Of a stretch of DNA of 39,810 nt, positions 5,922 to 39,810 are shown in pieces. The DNA comes from Oscillospiraceae bacterium. Lineage in GTDB: Bacteria; Bacillota; Clostridia; Oscillospirales; Oscillospiraceae. Position numbers and translations under genes: made by a program. The notes under the pieces were generated by a model. That model did not search any database, was not told where the DNA came from, and saw nothing but the letters and a program-made list of their open reading frames with translations. Each line of letters begins with the position of its first letter. Positions within the stretch are counted from its first letter, which is position 1. The stretch spans positions 1 to 39,810 of the forward strand of contig CACWLG010000019.1 of the NCBI GenBank assembly GCA_902761635.1, written 5' to 3'.

Positions 5922-7358
5922 ATGCTGCAGCATCATTTTACATTCACCAAAAACACAGTTACCAGGCTCACCTTTGCCATCGTGCTTGTCAGCTTCCTGC
6001 TGTCCACCTTTGTCTCCCTCTGGTCCCTGAGCGTCATGAGCCGGCGCAATACGCGGGAGCTGAGCAGAATGATGGCGGCCCGCATATACGACTCCATCAG
6101 CAGTGAGCTCAACGAGCCGGTCACACTGGGGCTTGCCATGGCAAGAGACAGCTTTCTGATAAAGGCGCTGCAGAACGAGAAGAACGTGCCCGAAGAGGAG
6201 AGCACCGCCGCCTTCCAGGAATATCTCTCCGGGATCCGCGACGGGTTCCGCTATGAATCGGTCTACGTGATTTCCGACACCACCAGGCGCTATTACAATT
6301 TTGACGGTCTGAGCAAGATCGTGGACCCGGAGCATGACGAGCATGATTACTGGTACGGGCAGTTTCTGAACAAACACACCGACTATGATCTGGACGTCGG
6401 CTTTGACGAGCAGAGCCAGGACGCCTGGGCCGTCTTTGTCGATACCGCCGTACGGGATCGTGACGGGCATTTTCTGGGCGTGTGCGGCGTCGGCATGCAT
6501 ATGCGCCGGAGCCATGACCTGTTCCTAAGCCTGGAAAAGGAGCATCAGGTCAAGATCATGCTGATCGACACCGCCGGGCAGATCCAGGTGGATACGGAGG
6601 AGGGCAGGCTCCTGACCCGGTACGAAAACGATTTGAAGCTCAGCCCCGGCGGCGATTATGTGTATCACGACCTGGGCGGCGGCCGTATCGCGGTCAGCAA
6701 ATACCTGGACAAGCTGGACTGGTACCTGGTGGTGGAAAGCGATGAGAACGGCACCCAGGAGGAGACCTTCAACGTGATCCTGCTGAACATCGCCCTGTTC
6801 GTCTTCATCATGATCATCCTGATCCTGACGCTTCGGATCATCTCCATGCGCACCGCCGCGCTGACCAACGCCTCTCTGCAGGATCAGGATACGCAGCTTT
6901 TCAACCGCAGAGCCTTTGAAGAGGAAAAGGCAAGATTGATGGCAAACGCCCTGGAGGAAAACTTCGTCTATGCGACCATGGACATCAACGGCCTCAAAAC
7001 GACCAACGATACCCTGGGACACGCTGCCGGGGACGAACTGATCCGCGGTACGGCGGACTGCCTGCGCAAATGCTTCGGGCGTTACGGTAAAATCTTCCGT
7101 ATCGGCGGTGACGAATTTGCCGCCATGCTGCACATCAGCGAAAGCCAGCTGGACCAGGCACGCGAGGAGCTGGACAAGGCCGTTAAAGAATGGAAGGGAG
7201 AACTCGTCGACAAGCTCTCCATCTCCTGCGGTTATGCCTCCGCCCGGGAGTTCCCCTCAGAAAACGTCGCGGAGCTCAGCCGTATCTCCGACGAGCGCAT
7301 GTACGCTGAAAAGGCTGAATACTACAGGCGCGCCGGGATCAACAGGAGAAGGACTTGA
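5922..7358 (+). CDS. Membrane-bound diguanylate cyclase (Cache-like sensor plus GGDEF)
   Basis: 478 residues. One membrane segment lies at ~15-38 and a second at ~285-309 (VILLNIALFVFIMIILIL). The ~245 residues between them face outside and resemble a dCache sensor (SVYVISDTTRRYYNF... WAVFVDTAVRDRDGHFLGVCGVGM). The cytoplasmic part is a GGDEF domain with an intact signature at ~395-399 (FRIGGDEFAAML), so it should make cyclic di-GMP from two GTP. No RxxD inhibitory site is seen at the usual place before GGDEF, and no EAL domain is present. Start: the frame can be extended to TTG 5862, but ATG 5922 has a GAGAAGTGAG ribosome site and avoids translating through the 5880 hairpin, so I prefer it. 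Confidence 0.9.
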   Translation: MLQHHFTFTKNTVTRLTFAIVLVSFLLSTFVSLWSLSVMSRRNTRELSRMMAARIYDSISSELNEPVTLGLAMARDSFLIKALQNEKNVPEEESTAAFQEYLSGIRDGFRYESVYVISDTTRRYYNFDGLSKIVDPEHDEHDYWYGQFLNKHTDYDLDVGFDEQSQDAWAVFVDTAVRDRDGHFLGVCGVGMHMRRSHDLFLSLEKEHQVKIMLIDTAGQIQVDTEEGRLLTRYENDLKLSPGGDYVYHDLGGGRIAVSKYLDKLDWYLVVESDENGTQEETFNVILLNIALFVFIMIILILTLRIISMRTAALTNASLQDQDTQLFNRRAFEEEKARLMANALEENFVYATMDINGLKTTNDTLGHAAGDELIRGTADCLRKCFGRYGKIFRIGGDEFAAMLHISESQLDQAREELDKAVKEWKGELVDKLSISCGYASAREFPSENVAELSRISDERMYAEKAEYYRRAGINRRRT

Positions 7359-31253: not shown

Positions 31254-32381
31254 TTAGTAACCGTACGTTACGATATCCCAGCTGCCGTCCGCGCTGCGGG
31301 CAAGCCACCACTGGTAATCCGTGTATTCCGTGTCAGCCTCCCATGCGCCGATCTGTTCGACAGGGGAATGAAAATCCATCAGAAATTCCGCCACCTGGGT
31401 ATAGCTTGCATCCTTGCTGAGATCGTTCATCCACTTGAGATTTTCTTCCGTGCAGCTCTCGTCTCCGGCATAGCGGATGCTGTGCAGCTCGCAGCCCTCC
31501 CAGTCGGCAAAGTACGTCTTGATCTTTTCGGCGGCGTCCTCCAGCTCCGCCTGGGTATAGAGTTTGGAGTCGCCGCAGTCAATCAAAACGCTCGGTTCAA
31601 AACCCCAGGCCTTCCAGGTCTCCGGGCTCAAATGCTCCAGCGTGTCGATGACGACCACACACTCGGGCTTGACCCGCTGCATGACGAGCTTCATGATGTT
31701 TTCCGGCAGGGATACGCAGCCGCCCGTATAGGGCTTTAGCGGGCCGAAGCAGTGCAGGAAGATGGCGGAGCCCCTGCCCGGCGTACCGTCTTCGTTAAAG
31801 CTGATGTTGAGACAGTACTGGTACTGATACTCATACTCGACGATATGCTCACTGTCGTCCTTGGCAAGCTCCGGATACTCCTTGATGTCCACCATTTCGT
31901 TATAGCGCATGCCCTCGCGCTGGTCGCCGGACCACCAGATGTCGTCCGTGACCTGGGTATAGGGGATGGCGCAGCCGGGATCGGGCGCGATGCCAAAGGC
32001 TTTGTTGAAGCGGTAAACGCCCATGGGCGTCTGCCCGCAGCCTTCGACGTGAGCGGCGTCCGGGCACAGACCCCGTTTGCCGACATAGCCGGGCGTGGAA
32101 AGGATCTGTTTCCATGCGCCGCTTTCGTCCCGCTCGTGCATGGAGACGGTGGCCGTTGTTTTATCCGTCCCAAAGCCCGCCACGACAAAGAGCTGGGTGA
32201 TGCTCTCATCCTGCGCGTACGGAAGCGCGGTGATCCACTCGGGGGAATCCTCTTCCCGCTGGATCGAAGCGTGCAGCCTGTCTTCGATCTGATCGGAAAG
32301 TCCGCCATCCGCTGCGGCGCTCATGGCTGCGGCGCTGAGAAGCAGGACTGCGCTGAGAAACAGGGCGATGATTTTTTTCAT
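31254..32381 (-). CDS. Exported L,D-transpeptidase-like (YkuD/ErfK) protein
   Basis: 375 residues. A signal peptide (MKKIIALFLSAVLLLSAAAMSAAA) is followed by a YkuD-like catalytic domain at ~60-255: TPMGVYRFNKAFGI, GSAIFLHCFG, then PYTGGCVSLPE, which supplies the His and Cys of the H...(S/T)xGC motif. The Arg/Asn usually after the Cys is replaced by Val-Ser, as in the 'TxGCV' branch. The last ~110 residues form a second domain (AAEKIKTYFADWEGCELHSI) of unknown function. If active it would cross-link or modify peptidoglycan outside the cell. Its promoter region carries the same motif as the mini-protein operon and the two-component operon. Ribosome site GGAGGAGG. Confidence 0.82.
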   Translation of the reverse strand: MKKIIALFLSAVLLLSAAAMSAAADGGLSDQIEDRLHASIQREEDSPEWITALPYAQDESITQLFVVAGFGTDKTTATVSMHERDESGAWKQILSTPGYVGKRGLCPDAAHVEGCGQTPMGVYRFNKAFGIAPDPGCAIPYTQVTDDIWWSGDQREGMRYNEMVDIKEYPELAKDDSEHIVEYEYQYQYCLNISFNEDGTPGRGSAIFLHCFGPLKPYTGGCVSLPENIMKLVMQRVKPECVVVIDTLEHLSPETWKAWGFEPSVLIDCGDSKLYTQAELEDAAEKIKTYFADWEGCELHSIRYAGDESCTEENLKWMNDLSKDASYTQVAEFLMDFHSPVEQIGAWEADTEYTDYQWWLARSADGSWDIVTYGY

Positions 32382-32417: not shown

Positions 32418-32453
32418 ATTTAACGACGGCGCGGAATGACCGCAATATTACAA
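32418..32453 (-). promoter_or_regulatory. Shared-motif promoter, copy A (transpeptidase-like gene)
   Basis: On the minus strand TTGTAATATTGCGGTCAT (motif 32436-32453), then 12 bases, then TTAAAT as a -10-like hexamer (32418-32423), 37 bases upstream of the ATG at 32381. It matches copies B and C. Confidence 0.7.
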
Positions 32454-32527
32454 GGCGGCAGCGCTTTCCCCGCTTCTCCGGAAAATCTGCGAGACTTTAA
32501 GATTTATTCAGATAATTTCGGTGAGTT

Positions 32528-32562
32528 TTGTAATATTACGGTCATACTCGGTATGCTATGCT
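32528..32562 (+). promoter_or_regulatory. Shared-motif promoter, copy B (mini-protein operon)
   Basis: TTGTAATATTACGGTCAT then ACT and 8 bases, then TATGCT (32557-32562), about 87 bases upstream of ATG 32650. It lies divergent to copy A, with about 75 bases between the two motifs. Confidence 0.75.
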
Positions 32563-32649
32563 TATGCCGTACTCAGTAAGCTGCGTTATGAGACAGCATA
32601 AACGGCTGAAAGCAAACAACAAAAAAACATAATAAAGGAGATCAAAACC

Positions 32650-32937
32650 ATGTCTGACGAAGTGAAAGTCCTCAACGACCAGGAAGCGGAAAATGTATCC
32701 GGCGGCGCGGCCCATGCCAACGGCCAGTACTGGACCGAAGGCGGCGCGACCTACTACCGCATCGCCCCCAACGACTATCTCGGCAACATCGCCCAAATGT
32801 TCGGCACCAGTCCTTACGCGATTCAGCAGCTCAACCCCGCTCGTTTGCAGCAGGAACTCCGGCAATTGAAGAAGGAGAGAGGACAGAACAAATGGAAAAC
32901 CCTGAAAAGCTTTGTGCAAAAAAACTTGAGAATGTGA
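32650..32937 (+). CDS. Double-glycine-leader mini-protein with LysM-like cargo, 3' end probably altered
   Basis: 95 residues as read. The N-terminus (MSDEVKVLNDQEAENVSGG, Gly-Gly at 18-19) is a bacteriocin-type leader of the kind cleaved and exported by C39-peptidase ABC transporters. The cargo starts with a LysM half-domain (YYRIAPNDYLGNIAQMFGT, YAIQQLNP, ~35-63), but the expected second half (xxIxxGxxIxV) is missing. It is replaced by a basic tail that overlaps the next gene's start by 46 bases, which suggests a frameshift or recombination near 32838. The matching LysM end survives at 35354-35389. Ribosome site AAAGGAG. No transporter gene is in the window. Confidence 0.75.
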   Translation: MSDEVKVLNDQEAENVSGGAAHANGQYWTEGGATYYRIAPNDYLGNIAQMFGTSPYAIQQLNPARLQQELRQLKKERGQNKWKTLKSFVQKNLRM

Positions 32938-33092
32938 ACGACGCCATGCTGGAGGATGTCGCCGGAGGCGGCAAAATCAACTATGTCGTCTGCTGCACCT
33001 GCGGCGCGCAAGTTCCTACAAATCGCCCTACGGGCGCATATTACAACAATAATATCTGCCCATTCTGTCATGGCCGCATCAAATCATGGTAA
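32892..33092 (+). CDS. Double-glycine-leader mini-protein with zinc-ribbon cargo
   Basis: 66 residues. The leader KKLENVNDAMLEDVAGG ends in Gly-Gly at 25-26. The ~40-residue cargo carries two knuckles, C34-x-x-C37 (CCTC) and C56-x-x-C59 (CPFC), a zinc-ribbon spacing. A leader of this type points to export, so the zinc ribbon would act outside the cytosol, which is unusual because zinc ribbons are normally intracellular. The start overlaps the preceding LysM-like frame; GAGAGGA lies upstream. The stop is 17 bases before the large zinc-ribbon protein gene, so all three share a transcript. Confidence 0.78.
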   Translation: MENPEKLCAKKLENVNDAMLEDVAGGGKINYVVCCTCGAQVPTNRPTGAYYNNNICPFCHGRIKSW

Positions 33093-33109
33093 GAGGAGGA
33101 GATAAAAAC

Positions 33110-35293
33110 ATGAAAAAGTTTTTTGCAATCATACTTGCGCTTTGCATGCTGCTTTCGCTCGGCCTCGTCGCCCACGCGGACGAGCACGATCACGATCATG
33201 AAGTAGCAAACGGCGTCGGCGAGCAGATCAAGTTCCTCGCGGGCCGCTTCGCCGATCTCGAGCAGAAGGACGACGGGAACACCTGGCACTACGCTGTCAC
33301 GGATCTCGACCACAACGGCCGCCTGGAGCTTCTGGCCACCTGCCGGGACAAGCTGGGCCTCAACTGGCTGAGAGCATGGGAGATCAGCCCCAACGGTGCA
33401 ACGCTCATCAGCTGCACGCAGAATACGATCCCCGCTCCCATCGGCTCGGATAAGAAAACCATAACGGCTGACGGCATGCTCCTGAACCTGTACAGCAACA
33501 GCGTCGATACCTGCTATGACAAGGACAGCAATACCTATTGCTATCTGTTTAAGGATGTTGCGGAATACACCGCGACGGAGGCTACAAAGATCATGACGCC
33601 CGGCGGGGACGCGATCGCCATTGCGGTCAGCAGTGACGTCGTCACCACCGGCGTGGGCGCTGTCACCCTGAAAAACGGCAGCATGGAGCCCAGCATCATG
33701 CTCGGCAGCTGCACCACCTGGAGCGAGGGCGACGGCGATCTCAAGGTTTACTGCCGCAACGGCAAGGGCGAAGAGATCACCATGGATGAATTCCTGACTC
33801 TCGGCGCAAGCAGCTTCAAGGGCCTCCCCCACTTCAGCACCGCCTTTGACTGGTTCACCGCCGACGAGGCCGGCATGCTCCAGCGCTTTGTGGACAGCTA
33901 TGCCACCTTTGACGGTGTGCGCGACGCGGACAACGCCGAGGGCGGCGTCGCCTTCACGGCCTCCCAGAGCGCCGGCGGCGTCTACATCACCAAGAATCCC
34001 ACCGACGAAAAGCACAACGAGGGCCAGACGGCGGAGTTTATCGCCAACGCCAATATTTATGACAAGATCACCTGGACCTTTGTCGCTCCCGACGGCAAGA
34101 CCTATACCGTGGACGATATCCGCAAGATCGGCGGTCAGCTTGAGGGTGAAAACACCGGCGACCTGAAGATCAAAAACGTCAAGACCAACATGAACGGCTG
34201 GGGCGTGTTCGCCACCTTCGATTACCGCGGCGCCTCCGCCAGAACCTCCACCGCCTACCTCTATGTCTGGGCCGGCGGCAGCACGAGTGACCTGTCCGCA
34301 AAGATCGACGAATTTTACAGAGTCAAGCCCTGGCTCAACGGTGTCTGGACCTGCCCGAAGTGCAGCGCGGCGGTCTCCGGCTCCCAATGCTGGAACTGCG
34401 GCTTTAACCCCGTCTCCTTCTATGCGATCTACTACGGTGTGACGCCCACCGGCTATGACTGGTACTACGGTCTGAACGGCCAGACCCCCGTCAACACCAT
34501 CACGCCGAACCCGTATGTCGGCGTCCTTGCCTGGATCTGCCCCATCTGCGGGGAGAGCACCCAGAACGCCGTTACCTGCTGGAACTGCGGCTATCACTAC
34601 GGCGATCCCGTTTATCTCCCCGCGCACCCGACCTCCGGCACCTTTGCCTGGACCTGCCCTGTCTGCGGCGAGGGCAACCAGGACGTCATGGACTGCTGGA
34701 GCTGCGGTTATCATTACGGTAATCCCGTCGGGTACAACGACCCGGCCTGGAACACCTACCGCGAGGCGCTCATGGGCGCAGACCTGATCGCCTGCTGGTT
34801 CTGCGGCCAGTACTTCAACAGCGACTATGACTGCTGCCCCTACTGCGGCAGCTATCCGGGCGGCGGCAACTTCTATGGCGAAATCATGAGCGATCAGTAC
34901 AACGAGCTGATGCAGGGCGCGACCCTGATCACCTGCTGGAGCTGCGGCCAGGCTTACAACAGCGATTATGATACCTGCCCCTACTGCGGCAACTACCCGC
35001 AGAGCGGCCCGACCTGGGTGGATGAGGTCGACTCCAACCAGCTCAGGGAGGCCATCCAGGGCGCCACGATGATCACCTGCTGGAACTGCGGGCGCGATTA
35101 CAACTATGACTATGATTCCTGCCCCTACTGCGGAAGCTATCCCCACACCGCCTCTGGCCTGCCGGCAGAGGTGGTCACCGCAAACCAGATCTCCGAAGCC
35201 TACCAGGGCGCGGACATGATCCAGTGCGCAAACTGCGGCCAGCTTTTCAACTACGATTACGATACCTGCCCCTACTGCGGCTGGGCGCCCTGA
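33110..35293 (+). CDS. Exported protein with seven tandem zinc-ribbon modules
   Basis: 727 residues. A signal peptide (MKKFFAIILALCMLLSLGLVAHA) and a His/Asp-rich start (DEHDHDHE, a possible metal site) lead into a ~270-residue domain with a Ca-binding-like loop DLDHNGRLELL, then an Ig/PKD-like domain (~290-390). From ~415 there are seven CxxC-x(9-12)-CxxC modules: three with CPxC first and CWxC second, then four reversed and spaced every ~47-49 residues (CWxC or CANC, then YDxCPYCG). It ends CPYCGWAP. ATG 33110 follows AGGAGGAG. The domain order suggests an extracellular scaffold or metal/thiol-binding protein; I know of no assigned function. Confidence 0.85.
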   Translation: MKKFFAIILALCMLLSLGLVAHADEHDHDHEVANGVGEQIKFLAGRFADLEQKDDGNTWHYAVTDLDHNGRLELLATCRDKLGLNWLRAWEISPNGATLISCTQNTIPAPIGSDKKTITADGMLLNLYSNSVDTCYDKDSNTYCYLFKDVAEYTATEATKIMTPGGDAIAIAVSSDVVTTGVGAVTLKNGSMEPSIMLGSCTTWSEGDGDLKVYCRNGKGEEITMDEFLTLGASSFKGLPHFSTAFDWFTADEAGMLQRFVDSYATFDGVRDADNAEGGVAFTASQSAGGVYITKNPTDEKHNEGQTAEFIANANIYDKITWTFVAPDGKTYTVDDIRKIGGQLEGENTGDLKIKNVKTNMNGWGVFATFDYRGASARTSTAYLYVWAGGSTSDLSAKIDEFYRVKPWLNGVWTCPKCSAAVSGSQCWNCGFNPVSFYAIYYGVTPTGYDWYYGLNGQTPVNTITPNPYVGVLAWICPICGESTQNAVTCWNCGYHYGDPVYLPAHPTSGTFAWTCPVCGEGNQDVMDCWSCGYHYGNPVGYNDPAWNTYREALMGADLIACWFCGQYFNSDYDCCPYCGSYPGGGNFYGEIMSDQYNELMQGATLITCWSCGQAYNSDYDTCPYCGNYPQSGPTWVDEVDSNQLREAIQGATMITCWNCGRDYNYDYDSCPYCGSYPHTASGLPAEVVTANQISEAYQGADMIQCANCGQLFNYDYDTCPYCGWAP
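34784..35290 (+). repeat. Coding tandem repeat, four ~141-147-base units
   Basis: Each unit encodes 'E-A-x-x-GA-x-x-I-x-CWxCG...YDxCPYCGxYP' and repeats every 47-49 residues. The units are similar at protein level and moderately similar at DNA level, so they are older than a recent expansion. Confidence 0.7.
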
Positions 35294-35353
35294 CCGGCCT
35301 GTGACATTATCCTATACTGCTCAATCAGAAGATCGCTGGCTACCACCGATTGC

Positions 35354-35389
35354 ACAATTCGCGCCGGCGATGTGATCCGCGTACGCTGA
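35354..35389 (+). pseudogene. Orphan 3' end of a LysM-domain gene
   Basis: The frame reads TIRAGDVIRVR then stop, which is the typical closing strand of a LysM domain (x-I-x-A-G-D-x-I-x-V). No LysM start precedes it; upstream is the end of the zinc-ribbon gene. It looks like the remnant of a deleted copy of a LysM mini-protein gene. Confidence 0.5.
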
Positions 35390-35446
35390 GCAGAAAGAAA
35401 AGCCCGGGGGAATCCCAAACGACTTTCGATACCAGATAGGAAAGAG

Positions 35447-35490
35447 AAAACCTTCGTTCGGCACTAAAACGCGGACGAAGGTTTTTCTTT
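35447..35490. terminator. Bidirectional terminator
   Basis: AAACCTTCGT pairs with ACGAAGGTTT and is followed by TTCTTT on the plus strand; the minus strand also has a T-run. It separates the convergent zinc-ribbon and thioredoxin-like genes. Confidence 0.8.
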
Positions 35491-35508
35491 GTTTTTTGCT
35501 GTGTAGTA

Positions 35509-36834
35509 TTAAGCCGCTTTGTTGATTGTTACGGTGAGATCGCTTGGGACATCTCGGGTTTCGTATTCCTGCTTGTTTTTCTCAAAGCCCTCGGGTACCT
35601 TGAGGATGTGAACGGTGTACACCTCGCCGCCAGGCATCTCAAAGACGGCGGCGCCCTCAGAATCTGTTTTGCCGAGTATGCAGGAATCCGTAGAGCAGAA
35701 CTGCACGGTCGCACCCTCCACGGGCTTCCCGTCATTGTCGAGGACGATCACGCGGTAGCTTTCCGCATTGGAGGCTGCTATTGGCGCCGGTTCGCGGAGA
35801 AGATTGGGTTTCTCACCCTTCAGAAGTGAATTGATGATATCTTCGTAGGCATCCACATAAGCACCTGTGAAGGTATATTGTACTACGCCGTTGCTGTCTA
35901 TCATCAGGCTGGTCGGGTAATGCTCAATTGTTACCATGCTCTCAAAATCCTTGGGCGGGAGCAGGTTGAGATACTCCACATGGTTTTTGTCCAAAATAGC
36001 CTTGCCCTCCTCCAATGCGCCGGGCTCATGGCCGTCGAACAGGATGCCGACGATGCCGCAGTTTATGTCACGCAGACGCTGGTCAATTCTGCCCAACTCC
36101 TCCAGCTCTTCAACGCAGGGGTGGCACCAGGTTGCCCAGACATTGAGCATTGTTATATCGTTGCGCGAAAAAATATCCTCACTTTTGACAGGGTTCCCGT
36201 CCAGATCGGTCGTCTCAAAGGACACCTTCACGTCAAGATTGGGATCCTTCACAACGGGGGCAAAAAACTCTGCGCGGTTTATCACATCGAGCACACCTGC
36301 ATATACTCGGCGATATTCCTCAGCAAACGCGGAATTCCAGTGGCTGACCTTTTCTTCATCGTCAACGCTGGTATCATAGAGGTAAAACAGATAGCCGTCG
36401 GCTTCTCCAAGCTTCGTGCGGGTCGGGTGACATCCTTTGTCGATCAAGCTCTGCTGATAGAAGTCCGCCAGGTCTTCGCTGCCTGCCGCAACCACGGCAA
36501 GGGGCATGGCCGTGGCCTGTTCATTCTGCTCTGACAGACGGTCCAGCTCTTCGTCCGTTATGTCTTTTTTCGACATTGCTTCTTGCCATGCAGCCATTTC
36601 CTCCTCTGTCATGGCAGTGTAGTTGACGCTGGTAATATAAACATCCGTATAGGGGTCAAATTGATCGGACATGATGCTCAGCACGCCTGAGAGGTTTTGA
36701 AAATCCTCGGGAAGCTTAAGTCTGGCGCCACCCCTGTCCTCGCTATAGAGCGAGGTATCTATCGCGGCAAAAGCTGATGCACCGAGCGAGGCCAGCAGAA
36801 CAAGGGTCAGCAGGAACGCAAATATTTTTTTCAT
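35509..36834 (-). CDS. Exported TlpA-like thioredoxin with C-terminal CnaB-like domain
   Basis: 441 residues. A signal peptide (MKKIFAFLLTLVLLASLGASAFA) precedes a ~165-residue N-terminal domain of unknown type. A TlpA/ResA-type thioredoxin domain follows at ~200-350 with the active-site pair C237-C240 (WATWCHPC) and the cis-Pro strand YPTSLMID. The C-terminal ~80 residues look like a CnaB/SpaA or transthyretin-like beta domain with its own cysteines (VQFCSTDSC). Such proteins reduce or rearrange disulfides outside the membrane. The start is ATG 36834 behind GGAGGG; the frame extends far upstream but only as the shadow of its inverted homologue at 36892. Confidence 0.87.
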   Translation of the reverse strand: MKKIFAFLLTLVLLASLGASAFAAIDTSLYSEDRGGARLKLPEDFQNLSGVLSIMSDQFDPYTDVYITSVNYTAMTEEEMAAWQEAMSKKDITDEELDRLSEQNEQATAMPLAVVAAGSEDLADFYQQSLIDKGCHPTRTKLGEADGYLFYLYDTSVDDEEKVSHWNSAFAEEYRRVYAGVLDVINRAEFFAPVVKDPNLDVKVSFETTDLDGNPVKSEDIFSRNDITMLNVWATWCHPCVEELEELGRIDQRLRDINCGIVGILFDGHEPGALEEGKAILDKNHVEYLNLLPPKDFESMVTIEHYPTSLMIDSNGVVQYTFTGAYVDAYEDIINSLLKGEKPNLLREPAPIAASNAESYRVIVLDNDGKPVEGATVQFCSTDSCILGKTDSEGAAVFEMPGGEVYTVHILKVPEGFEKNKQEYETRDVPSDLTVTINKAA

Positions 36835-36891
36835 TAGTAATCCCTCCAAGTCAAATCTTAACAATAAAATTCTATAACGATTTGACCTGAA

Positions 36892-37701
36892 TTGCAAGAG
36901 GGACTGTCTCAAAATGAGCAATTCTTTGTTCCGACAGAACCGGAGGATCCCTGGAGCGGCAAGGAGCTGCGCTTTGAGACCACGGATCTCGACGGCAATC
37001 CCGTCCGCAGTGAGGAACTCTTCGCGCAGCACAAGGTCACCATGCTCAACATCTGGGCCACCTGGTGCGATCCCTGCAAGAGAGAACTCCGGGAGCTGGG
37101 CGATATCAACCGCCGCGTGCAGGAGAAAAACGGCGCCATCATCGGCATACTCTCCGATGCGGACGACGCGGAAACCATCGCCCTGGGCAAGGAGCTGCTG
37201 GCGGAGAACGGGGCCGATTATCTGAACCTGACGCTGCCGACGGCTCTCAATGAGCTCGGGATTATCGAGGGCTACCCGACCAGCATCTTTGTCGACAGCA
37301 GCGGCGTCATTCTCGCGCCTCCGATCAACGCTGCTGCGGTCAATCTCTATGAGACCAGATTCGGCGAGCTGCTGGAAGGGAAGCAGCCCGCCGCCGTCGA
37401 CGCCGGCGCGAAGGACGCCTCGGCGGACACACCGGAGAACAGCGGCGGCGCCTACCGCGTGATCGTGCAGGATCAGGACGGCAATCCCGTCAAGGGCGTC
37501 ACGGTGCAGTTCTGCTCCGAGGCCGAGTGCGTCCTCGGCAAGACGGACGCGGACGGCGCGGCGAGCTTCGACATGCCCGAGGGCCCTGACCATGAGATCC
37601 ATCTGCTGAAGGTCCCCGAGGGCTTTGAAAAGGACGGCACGACCTATTCCGCGCCGGAGACCTACGGCGACATCGTTCTTGTTCTCAACAAGGCTGCGTA
37701 A
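36892..37701 (+). CDS. 5'-truncated TlpA-like thioredoxin paralogue, probably a gene fragment
   Basis: 269 residues from a TTG at 36892. From ~residue 11 it matches residues ~190-441 of the divergent neighbour, including the thioredoxin site C59-C62 (WATWCDPC), YPTSIFVD and the CnaB-like end (VQFCSEAEC, LKVPEGFEK, LNKAA). The signal peptide and N-terminal domain are missing, and no convincing ribosome site precedes the TTG, so it is either a 5'-deleted pseudogene or a cytoplasmic leftover. DNA identity to the neighbour is only moderate, so the duplication is not recent. It is followed by a strong terminator. Confidence 0.6.
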   Translation: MQEGLSQNEQFFVPTEPEDPWSGKELRFETTDLDGNPVRSEELFAQHKVTMLNIWATWCDPCKRELRELGDINRRVQEKNGAIIGILSDADDAETIALGKELLAENGADYLNLTLPTALNELGIIEGYPTSIFVDSSGVILAPPINAAAVNLYETRFGELLEGKQPAAVDAGAKDASADTPENSGGAYRVIVQDQDGNPVKGVTVQFCSEAECVLGKTDADGAASFDMPEGPDHEIHLLKVPEGFEKDGTTYSAPETYGDIVLVLNKAA

Positions 37702-37710
37702 CAGATTTAG

Positions 37711-37750
37711 CCCTTACAGGTGCCTGCGGCGCCTGTAAGGGTTCTTTTTT
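37711..37750 (+). terminator. Rho-independent terminator
   Basis: CCCTTACAGG pairs with CCTGTAAGGG, followed by TTCTTTTTT, directly before shared-motif promoter copy C. Confidence 0.85.
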
Positions 37751-37756
37751 GCCAAT

Positions 37757-37791
37757 TTGTAATACTGCGGTCATACTGGACGTGATATAAT
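37757..37791 (+). promoter_or_regulatory. Shared-motif promoter, copy C (two-component operon)
   Basis: TTGTAATACTGCGGTCAT then ACT and 8 bases, then TATAAT (37786-37791). The spacing from motif to -10 equals that in copy B, and no -35 hexamer is seen at the normal distance, as expected for an activator-dependent promoter. Confidence 0.75.
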
Positions 37792-37906: not shown

Positions 37907-38677
37907 ATGAAGATCCTGCTTGTAGACGACGAGGCCGGTGCCCTGCGGGATTTGCTCCGGGTGATGGAGAAGGCCGCGCCGGGCGATGAGATCGTGACGG
38001 CAAGAGAGTCAAAAGCCGCGCTCTCGCTGTGTGGGGAGCAGCGCTTCGACGCCGTGTTCCTGGACATTAAAATGCCGGACATGGACGGCCTGACGCTGAC
38101 CTCGGAGATCAAACGGATCTGCCCGATGACCAATATCATTATCGTGACGGCGTATCCGAATTTCGCCCTGGACGCGCTCAGGCTCTATGTCAGCGACTTT
38201 TTAAATCTGCGGCATCCGGTCAGCGATACAAGGAAGGGGCTTTATGTCCAGTGCTTCGGGCATTTTGAACTGTTCTATGACGGTCAGCCCGTTCGCTTCC
38301 GCCGCGCAAAGGTCAAGGAGCTGTTTGCCTATCTGATCGACCGGAGAGGTGCGTCCGTGACCAATATGCAGCTCAGGGCCATCCTCTGGATGGACGAGGT
38401 CAGCGAGGACGAAAAGCAGAGAAAGTATTTCGCCCAGCTCATCCATGAACTGCAAAACTGGCTGGAGGAACGTGAGCTCTCCGACATCTTTATACACAGA
38501 CGGGATTCCTATGCCGTCGCGCCGGAAAAGATCGCCTGCGACTATTATCGCGCCCTCGCCCATGACGCCCGCGCGCTGTCCATGTACCAGGGGGAGTATA
38601 TGTGCCAGTACGAATGGGCCGCGTACCGGGACATGACGAACGAGGGCCTGCTGAATAAAATCGGGATTATGCCATGA
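37907..38677 (+). CDS. SARP-like two-component response regulator with shortened receiver
   Basis: 256 residues. The receiver has the acidic pair D7-D8, phosphoacceptor D53 (VFLDIKMPDMDG) and T81 (VTAYPN), but the stretch that should hold beta5, the conserved Lys-Pro and helix alpha5 reads 'SDFLNLRHPV'. About 15-20 residues including Lys-Pro appear deleted in frame. From ~112 there is a winged-helix DNA-binding domain (VQCFGHFELFYDGQPVRFR, KVKELFAYLIDRRGASV) and a short bacterial-transcriptional-activator-like end (DCDYY-type, ALSMYQGEYMCQYEWA). The ATG follows GGTGAG; the stop overlaps the kinase ATG (ATGA). Confidence 0.88.
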   Translation: MKILLVDDEAGALRDLLRVMEKAAPGDEIVTARESKAALSLCGEQRFDAVFLDIKMPDMDGLTLTSEIKRICPMTNIIIVTAYPNFALDALRLYVSDFLNLRHPVSDTRKGLYVQCFGHFELFYDGQPVRFRRAKVKELFAYLIDRRGASVTNMQLRAILWMDEVSEDEKQRKYFAQLIHELQNWLEERELSDIFIHRRDSYAVAPEKIACDYYRALAHDARALSMYQGEYMCQYEWAAYRDMTNEGLLNKIGIMP

Positions 38678-39810
38678 AGATGACGGTGAAAAAGAAATCC
38701 CTGCTCGTCAGGGTGACGGCCATCGCGCTTGCGCTGGGGGTCGCCGCCATGCTTCTGAGCGGGGCTGTGCTCTACAGGATCTTTCACGAGCGGGCTTTGG
38801 CAAACGTGGAAAAGAGGCTGGATGAAGTCTCTGTTTTGCTGTATCCGCTCGTCAAGCATCAGAGCCTTGACTGGCTGCTGTCCTATTGGCAGGAGCACTG
38901 GGAGGAAATGGAGCTGCCCCCGTTTCACGACATGGACACATACATGAAATGGGCGGAGGAGCGCAGTGAATTTGAGCGTCTGAATGTCACCGCGCTCACG
39001 GCGGAGGAGCTTCGGGAAATGCCTGCGCAGCGCCAGCGCTATTTTGCGGAATACTGTTACCTTGAAACCATGCTTGCGCTGTCCGTGAATCGCAGCCATG
39101 TGGGCGTCGATGTGATTTCCTGCTTTATTCCGAACGCATCCGGAGAGGGCGCCTTTGCCGTCTTTCTGAGTACGGATGACGACACGGGCTTTCTGGAACA
39201 GCGCATGGTCCTGGGCGACGCATGGGACTTTCACGCGGCGGAGCACCCGGAGGCCATGGCGCTCTATGAGCAGGACTACCCGCTTGATACCGGGACCGAG
39301 GTTTATCGTTCCCCGAAGGACGGAATCGAGTATGCGAGCAAATATTCGCGGATCGGTATCGATCACAGGGCCCTTTTCGCAGTCTCCGTATCCATGCAGG
39401 AGATGCGGGAAGAGATCCGGTCGGATGTATGGAGCTTTGAAAAATGGGTCGCCCTGATCATCCTCATCCTCTCCGCGATCCTGACCATGCTTTATACGAT
39501 CTATCGAAGCTCGCTGAAGCCGACGCTGGCCCTCGCCCGGGATATCCGCGCTTATACGGGGGACAAGTCGGCCCAAAAGCTGTCCGACGCTATGGAGAGC
39601 CTGATCGACCGCGGGGATGAGATCGGCATGCTGGCGGGCGACGTCCGAAATATGGTGGAGCAAAACGAGCTGTATTACCAGCAGAAGCTTGAAAACGAAA
39701 CGCTGACGACGAAGCTCCTGCTGGCGCAGATCAAGCCGCATTTTATCTACAACTGCCTGGCGGTCATCCGCTCCTGTATCGACGAGCCGCAGAAAGCGGA
39801 GGAGGCCCTG
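38674..39810 (+). CDS. LytS-type sensor histidine kinase, 3' end outside window
   Basis: 379 codons are visible, open to the right edge. A membrane segment (~13-33), a ~225-residue extracytoplasmic sensor rich in acidic and aromatic residues, a second membrane segment (~262-282, WVALIILILSAILTMLYTIY) and a HAMP-like linker lead to the His_kinase-type phosphoacceptor region QIKPHFIYN, with His near residue 356. The ATP-binding domain lies beyond the window. It is the partner of the response regulator it overlaps by 4 bases, and it should sense an envelope signal; the ligand is unknown. Confidence 0.88.
   Translation, partial: MKMTVKKKSLLVRVTAIALALGVAAMLLSGAVLYRIFHERALANVEKRLDEVSVLLYPLVKHQSLDWLLSYWQEHWEEMELPPFHDMDTYMKWAEERSEFERLNVTALTAEELREMPAQRQRYFAEYCYLETMLALSVNRSHVGVDVISCFIPNASGEGAFAVFLSTDDDTGFLEQRMVLGDAWDFHAAEHPEAMALYEQDYPLDTGTEVYRSPKDGIEYASKYSRIGIDHRALFAVSVSMQEMREEIRSDVWSFEKWVALIILILSAILTMLYTIYRSSLKPTLALARDIRAYTGDKSAQKLSDAMESLIDRGDEIGMLAGDVRNMVEQNELYYQQKLENETLTTKLLLAQIKPHFIYNCLAVIRSCIDEPQKAEEAL

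Follow-up and report, generated by a model that had tools for sequence, protein, structure and literature searches.

An 11-bp direct repeat in fixed promoter register as a candidate operator of a two-component response regulator in an Oscillospiraceae bacterium

Results

Three copies of a direct repeat at a two-component locus

A stretch of 39,810 nucleotides from an Oscillospiraceae bacterium (contig CACWLG010000019.1 of assembly GCA_902761635.1; 'the window' throughout) carries an 18-mer, TTGTAATAYTRCGGTCAT, in three exact copies that are likely operators of the two-component response regulator (RR) encoded at the same locus. The copies lie at 32436-32453 on the minus strand (copy A) and at 32528-32545 and 37757-37774 on the plus strand (copies B and C), the places given in the initial annotation of this DNA. 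Behind copy A is the gene of an L,D-transpeptidase-like protein (31254..32381, minus) with a signal-peptide-like start and a YkuD match that, at 20 bits, stays under the Pfam cut-off of 23.4. Copy B heads an operon of three plus-strand genes: a LysM mini-protein (32650..32937; LysM, 7.7e-5), which has lost its C-terminus by a deletion relative to three related loci (L067, L068 and L072); a zinc-ribbon-like mini-protein (32892..33092), in which a leader ending LEDVAGG followed by CxxC...CxxC was read by eye and no family scored above cut-off; and a multi-zinc-ribbon protein (33110..35293; DZR, 1.5e-18) with a signal-peptide-like start. Both mini-proteins have a double-glycine leader as read from their sequences, with a cerein-type leader match of the first below cut-off (E 0.08). 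Most of the zinc-ribbon mini-protein gene is missing from L067 at about 6190-6200, and the gene is present in L068, L072 and the window. Copy C precedes the RR (37907..38677, plus), which joins a receiver domain with a deleted end (Response_reg, 8.4e-18) to an OmpR/SARP-like winged-helix output domain, and the RR is followed by a sensor histidine kinase of the His_kinase family (38674..39810, plus) that is cut by the contig end and has 541 amino acids (aa) in L068.

The 18-mer is confined to this locus. Matches were counted in the window at up to three mismatches and compared with 100 shuffles, and a reversed pattern served as the genome control. Beyond the three copies the window holds no further match, in line with the earlier claim that no other intergenic copy exists (shuffle mean 0.04; one of the 100 shuffles reached 3). 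The bacterium's own genome has no further copy at fewer than three mismatches, and allowing up to three adds four places, each with three mismatches, where the reversed pattern gives 2; because this 3.59-Mb genome is a draft and 86% complete, some sites could escape the count. Of 149 genomes searched, its own and those of 148 relatives, just four have exact copies: its own, G066, G084 and G027. The last three also hold a close orthologue of the local RR (95-97% identity over the best stretch).

On closer reading the 18-mer is part of a two-unit direct repeat with an 11-bp period, TTGTAATAYTR|CGGTCATACTS in copies B and C; the alternative of a single 18-bp word was rejected on the period-11 scans and paralogue registers given below. 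Copy A then extends over 32432..32453 (minus), with units TTGTAATATTG (32453-32443) and CGGTCATTCCG (32442-32432). Copy B extends over 32528..32549 (plus) as TTGTAATATTA|CGGTCATACTC, and its 18-mer is identical in L067, L068 and L072. Copy C extends over 37757..37778 (plus) as TTGTAATACTG|CGGTCATACTG, followed by GACG and TGA-TATAAT. The copy C of L072 equals the 18-mer of the window, and that of L067 and L068 reads TTGTAATAGTG|TGGTGATACTG, an altered form that retains GTNAT in both units together with their spacing.

Promoter layout and state of the local copy

Promoters B and C have extended -10 elements, TGC-TATGCT (32554..32562, plus; conserved in 4/4 loci) and TGA-TATAAT (37783..37791, plus; TGN-TATAAT in 4/4 loci). 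Exactly 11 bases separate the 18-mer from the hexamers TATGCT (32557-32562) and TATAAT (37786-37791), as had been noted before. The observation that no usable -35 is present also holds for both, with TTGACA matched at no more than 3/6 positions in B and 2/6 in C over spacers of 15-19. Across the window, L067, L068 and L072, TGN-TA begins exactly 11 bases past the 18-mer at 11/12 sites, the lone exception being copy A of the window, where the -10 stretch carries a deletion. About 36 bp are missing there at the place where the three relatives hold a -10 at 11 bases. The hexamer TTAAAT proposed as the -10 of copy A does begin after 12 bases; compared with the relatives it is a leftover of the deletion, and we rejected it as the true -10. 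Measured from the core G to TANNNT, the register is 16 in B and C of the window and in the measured sites of L067 and L068, and 17 in copy A. The motif and its -10 are kept in the relatives while parts of the flanks diverge. If transcription starts about 7 bases past the -10, the two units would lie at about -41 to -20.

A weaker, shorter variant had been described before a thioredoxin gene. The sequence TTGCAATTCAGGTCA does exist at 36883-36897 (minus), with its cores 9 and not 11 bases apart and, as read by eye, no -10 in register, and it was rejected as a regulator site.

The local copy looks partly decayed in this genome. At the receiver end of the RR (about 38197-38202), 42 nt (14 residues) are gone in frame compared with L067, L068 and L072. 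A thioredoxin-like open reading frame (ORF; 36892-37701) matches residues 196-455 of its L068 counterpart at 93% identity and lacks the N-terminal ~195 residues. It is probably a gene remnant next to a divergent full-length paralogue (35509-36834, minus), which is 37% identical to the L068 thioredoxin-like protein. Decay and assembly error would both fit the four losses seen at the locus. Since promoter A is without a -10, no more than two of the three promoters can be complete here, and the regulon idea rests more on the relatives than on this genome.

A period-11 rule around paralogous regulators

The same geometry recurs around paralogous regulators. The search covered 60 paralogue loci (684 kb), and for each of their 706 extended -10s the preceding DNA was scanned for exact repeats of a heptamer at periods of 8-16 and gaps of 4-15. 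Period 11 gave 9, 13, 24, 13 and 18 counts at gaps 8 to 12, where one site may fill several cells, and other periods gave 0-2 per cell. In a first control of 87 kb with 142 extended -10s there were 0 exact heptamer repeats at period 11. Counted as distinct exact sites over 66 sources, which include the window and its relatives, period 11 has 43 and every other period 0-3; control stretches totalling 400 kb from the bacterium's own genome held 0 exact period-11 sites. With one mismatch in seven allowed, the numbers were 85 at period 11 and 3-20 at other periods, against 6 and 1-8 in the 400-kb control. A 7-of-8 setting yielded 62 sites in 36/60 paralogue loci.

The register is equally rigid when sites are chosen on the repeat alone and no -10 is required. 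For TGTGA-type sites the distance from the core G to TANNNT is exactly 16 bases in 53/56 cases (41 with TGN), and for TTTGAG-type sites in 16/16 (15 with TGN). TTGGAY-type sites share one common register in 7/8 cases (13, counted from another core G). At L071, whose RR is 57% identical to that of the window, an autoregulatory GTGACAG-4-GTGACAG is followed after 9 bases by TAAAAT, again at register 16. Both the activator-dependent layout read from the three promoters in the initial annotation and the autoregulation suspected from the position of copy C before the regulator gain support from the three relatives of the locus and from this rule.

Heptamer words follow regulator clades

We took 84 RRs from the fetched loci and the window and sorted them by signature; 22/84 fell into 'other' because the signatures are narrow, and three variants were merged by eye (VADM and ADDM with RNxxxDLR, GLYD with IRxLR). 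Single-class loci were used for the clade fractions, which leaves out 14/62 sites in loci with mixed or unclassed regulators. SYLSN-type regulators are adjoined by GTGAC-type sites in 23/24 cases and RNxxxDLR-type regulators (two near variants merged) by TTTGAG sites in 12/12, and IRxLR-type regulators (one near variant merged) by 9 GGAY and 3 GTGAC sites; these are counts of sites, several of them from near-identical loci of related species.

Whole genomes give a similar picture. The pattern TGTGAC-N5-TGTGAC-N8-TGN-TANNNT, at up to one mismatch, finds 373 sites in 43/101 genomes of the genus, 0 for the reversed pattern, and sites in 0/146 other genomes of the order. The SYLSN clade, with membership set at 62% identity or more to one member (next matches 39% or less), is present in 36/101 genus genomes, and 36/36 of these have TGTGAC-type sites. 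TTTTGAG-type sites occur in 10/101 genus genomes (control 0). Full or near-full members of the corresponding clade at 75% identity or more are found in 9 genomes, all with TTTTGAG sites, and G031 has such a site without a member at this level. For the TTGGAY type, sites occur in 21/101 genus genomes (control 0); these are counts of the word, whose pairing with a clade comes from the fetched loci.

The regulator family

The output domains form a family with OmpR-type features. Trans_reg_C from Pfam matched 34/36 family members at E<=0.1, and the window's own output domain alone had no Pfam match. The BTAD model matched 0/36 members, and by our reading only about 45-50 residues remain after the winged helix. 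A profile of the 36 output domains, compared with solved structures, matched OmpR-type regulators (best 1p2f, E 0.00025), EmbR at positions 8-114 (E 0.002) and AfsR (E 0.0096); since the alignment to EmbR reaches position 114 of 143, a remnant of the BTA domain is possible. In a PDB search with the whole regulator, none of the matches listed (best 60 of 147) extends past residue 132, and the matched part was thus mainly the receiver. Against NCBIfam, the best receiver matches were the NosR, BtsR and AtoC models, none above cut-off.

A tree was built of 80 output domains, 4/84 RRs having been dropped because their domain-start pattern was unmatched. The window clade (5 rows) has support of 100/99 and is the sister of the TGTGAC clade, with weak support (85/74). 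Heptamer labels were given to 26/80 rows, from loci that have a single regulator and a single class of site and by hand for the window, L067, L068 and L071, leaving 54 unassigned. They cluster on the tree with 15 changes against a shuffled mean of 24.7, a clustering that near-copies alone can give. At L069 (9001-10626) the regulator ORF extends to 542 aa with an Ig-like-looking tail past the output domain, an unusual fusion or assembly effect.

Target genes and export

Genes behind TGTGA-type sites often encode small proteins with double-glycine leaders. A regular expression was applied to 74/77 non-redundant fetched sites of this type (3 without a callable gene), not to all 373, and it found a leader protein behind 54/74, with 53 of those at most 160 aa long, against 8/175 for background extended -10s. 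Several of these proteins run on, by eye, into LysM-like sequence. In the bacterium's own genome the expression flags 5/12 targets, and two genes on contig C31, L260 and L261, escape it because their leaders end in VTGG. Both encode LysM double-glycine mini-proteins nearly identical to that of the window, each under a TGTGAC-type repeat promoter. The other own-genome targets look by eye like secreted or membrane proteins.

A single C39 ABC transporter match was found in the own genome, on a contig (C17) other than that of the window, where a STAS protein, a small protein and the C39 transporter stand in a row (L268). The DNA upstream of this operon holds, by eye, one TTTTGAG word and TATAAT, and no period-11 repeat. 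C39 signatures occur in 11/60 paralogue loci, and genes that resemble STAS genes in L192 and L206 are preceded by TTGGAY-type repeat promoters. Taken together, the C39 match, the C39 signatures and the STAS/TTGGAY promoters make export of the mini-proteins by a C39-type transporter likely.

Discussion

The evidence points to an interpretation that we hold to be likely: the motif serves as operator for a two-component tandem-dimer activator that would work in the manner of SARP and PhoB proteins and read a paralogue-specific DNA word. Two copies of the RR would bind head-to-tail, one to each 11-bp unit, with the cores GTMAT one helix turn apart. The bound dimer, covering about -41 to -20, would substitute for the absent -35 and let the vegetative polymerase dock on the extended -10 (TGN-TANNNT) at a fixed register, in which the second core has its G 16 bases ahead of the -10. 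The regulator would switch on its own operon from promoter C and the divergent promoters A and B, of which A would serve the L,D-transpeptidase-like protein and B the double-glycine-leader LysM and zinc-ribbon mini-proteins. The latter would probably be exported and trimmed by a C39-type ABC transporter whose gene lies on another contig. The system would be one paralogue of a genus-wide set in which each clade reads its own heptamer, GTAAT/GTCAT here and TGTGACA, TTTTGAG or TTGGAY elsewhere. Of the regulon of the local two-component system proposed in the initial annotation, the local regulator stands as the likely binder of a motif confined to its locus; the proposal has to be modified in that promoter A has lost its -10, the regulator lacks 14 receiver-end residues and the motif is a two-unit repeat.

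Known systems provide close parallels. SARP sites are direct repeats spaced 11 or 22 bp with the 3' repeat 8 bp from the -10, and the afs box of AfsR covers -40 to -19 (PMC10936776). The Streptomyces regulator AfsR binds two adjoining 11-bp direct repeats over the -35 region of promoters with a poor -35 (PMC10936776), much like the arrangement here, with units that would cover about -41 to -20. In our sites the gap to the -10 is 9 nt from the heptamer GTMATAC and 7 nt from the 11-bp unit, near to 8 but not exact. The output-domain profile matches EmbR and AfsR, and an OmpR-type winged helix is present in the family. SARPs activate by docking sigma region 4 at promoters with a poor -35, of which the missing -35 is the part read here. 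The differences are that the domain here follows a phospho-receiver in a two-component pair, that of the seven-helix C-terminal BTA domain there is nothing or no more than a short tail, that the -10 is an extended one and that the promoters serve genes for putatively exported mini-proteins. As our search for the BTA domain gave 0/36, we do not file the family as SARP, nor do we file the sites as a Pho regulon. Regulators of the PhoB/OmpR family likewise combine a receiver with a winged helix and read 11-bp tandem repeats with a 7-bp core (PMC2648988), to which ours is alike in 11/14 core letters. Here, however, no NCBIfam receiver model scored above cut-off, a C-terminal tail follows the winged helix, several words occur within one genus and there are no phosphate genes. 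The likeness of the -41 to -20 placement to the afs box and the PhoB repeats suggests that the site may work like SARP and PhoB operators. The mini-proteins in turn resemble double-glycine peptides of the class II bacteriocin type exported by C39 transporters, with leaders of ELxxVxGG style and a C39 transporter in this genome, whereas their cargo consists of LysM or zinc-ribbon mini-proteins. In the literature as far as it was accessible to our search, we met no report of bacteriocin activity for such mini-proteins, and no SARP-like RR family of Clostridia with such repeats, which is no proof of absence.

Several observations weigh against the preferred interpretation or add nothing to it. 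The co-occurrence of the 18-mer with the close RR orthologue is uninformative, proving only common descent because both sit in one inherited locus. The two units of the window resemble each other less than the units of the paralogues do. In 24/60 paralogue loci the 7-of-8 setting found no site, and L069, with an RR 74% identical to that of the window, has no such site in the relaxed scan. At looser settings the period-11 matches in the 400-kb control (6 and 4) are about level with other periods there. TGTGAC-type sites also occur in 7/65 genomes without the SYLSN clade (28 of the 373 sites), and the Fisher value of 1e-20 for clade against sites, uncorrected for relatedness, is no true probability because the genomes, most of them drafts, are related. 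No TTTTGAG sites were found in 8 genomes with relatives of that clade at 55-60% identity or in G066 with a 181-residue fragment of a member, which ties the TTTTGAG word to a narrow clade only. AlphaFold models of the regulator are of low confidence (pLDDT 48 and 45). Finally, the lost receiver stretch holds the KP motif and the last helix of the domain, so phosphorylation control may be lost in the window. Receivers of the OmpR type dimerise through alpha4-beta5-alpha5; the receiver end is the part deleted here.

Other explanations fare worse. One is that a different paralogue of the same family, for example a TGTGAC-type regulator, drives the promoters in place of the local one. Architecture and register are identical, the two clades are sisters in the tree, if weakly so (85/74), and the near-identical LysM mini-proteins L260 and L261 sit under TGTGAC-type promoters in this very genome; nevertheless TGTGAC is absent from the window sites, heptamers travel with regulator clades and one site of the three belongs to the promoter of the local regulator itself, so that we regard this explanation as unlikely. 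About as unlikely is that a general phosphate regulator of the PhoB/PhoP type reads the sites as Pho boxes. By our own comparison the 18-mer agrees with CTGTCAT-N4-CTGTCAT at 11/14 fixed positions, and PhoB too reads two 11-bp repeats, each with 7 conserved bp (CTGTCAT) and a looser 4 bp (PMC2648988). A global Pho regulon would however give more sites, and none lies outside the locus at fewer than three mismatches. The Pho-box pattern itself, at up to three mismatches, gives 266 matches against 141 in the control, which is not clearly separable. It has two 1-mismatch matches, one of them inside a dihydroorotate dehydrogenase-like ORF, and inspection by eye of the 3-kb locus of each showed no recognisable phosphate gene; nor are the window genes phosphate genes. 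An alternative sigma factor, with the 18 bp as a -35-like element, would explain the rigid spacing to the -10 and the missing ordinary -35, but the vegetative-type extended -10, the 11-bp direct repeat and the different words beside different RR clades fit a dimeric activator, and we deem it highly improbable. The possibility that the motif arose by chance, or is a dispersed repeat with no tie to promoters, is practically negligible and already refuted as far as computation can, given a shuffle expectation of 0.04 and a motif and -10 retained while parts of the flanks diverge; in its favour are the four places with three mismatches outside the locus, where the control has 2.

Returning to the two-component activator, the genus-wide set invites a more speculative interpretation. 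It is conceivable, if doubtful, that the genus runs several insulated channels from one template, in which sister RRs with private heptamers at near-identical geometry address exported double-glycine LysM and zinc-ribbon mini-proteins; these may signal to the paired histidine kinases, and the target in the window may have been captured from the TGTGAC regulon by a swap of promoter words. The bacterium is probably rumen-dwelling; the relatives G066, G084 and G027 are named RUG13498, RUG13571 and RUG13650, and we take RUG to denote rumen genomes. Because sister clades share one frame with different words, the set amounts to a natural experiment in which winged-helix recognition changes and promoter geometry stays fixed. 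An 18-mer seen three times has thereby become a readable rule (an 11-bp repeat, a fixed register and an extended -10) that would predict the targets of these regulators across a genus of uncultured bacteria, and it brings into view a large set of LysM/double-glycine mini-proteins that are putatively exported.

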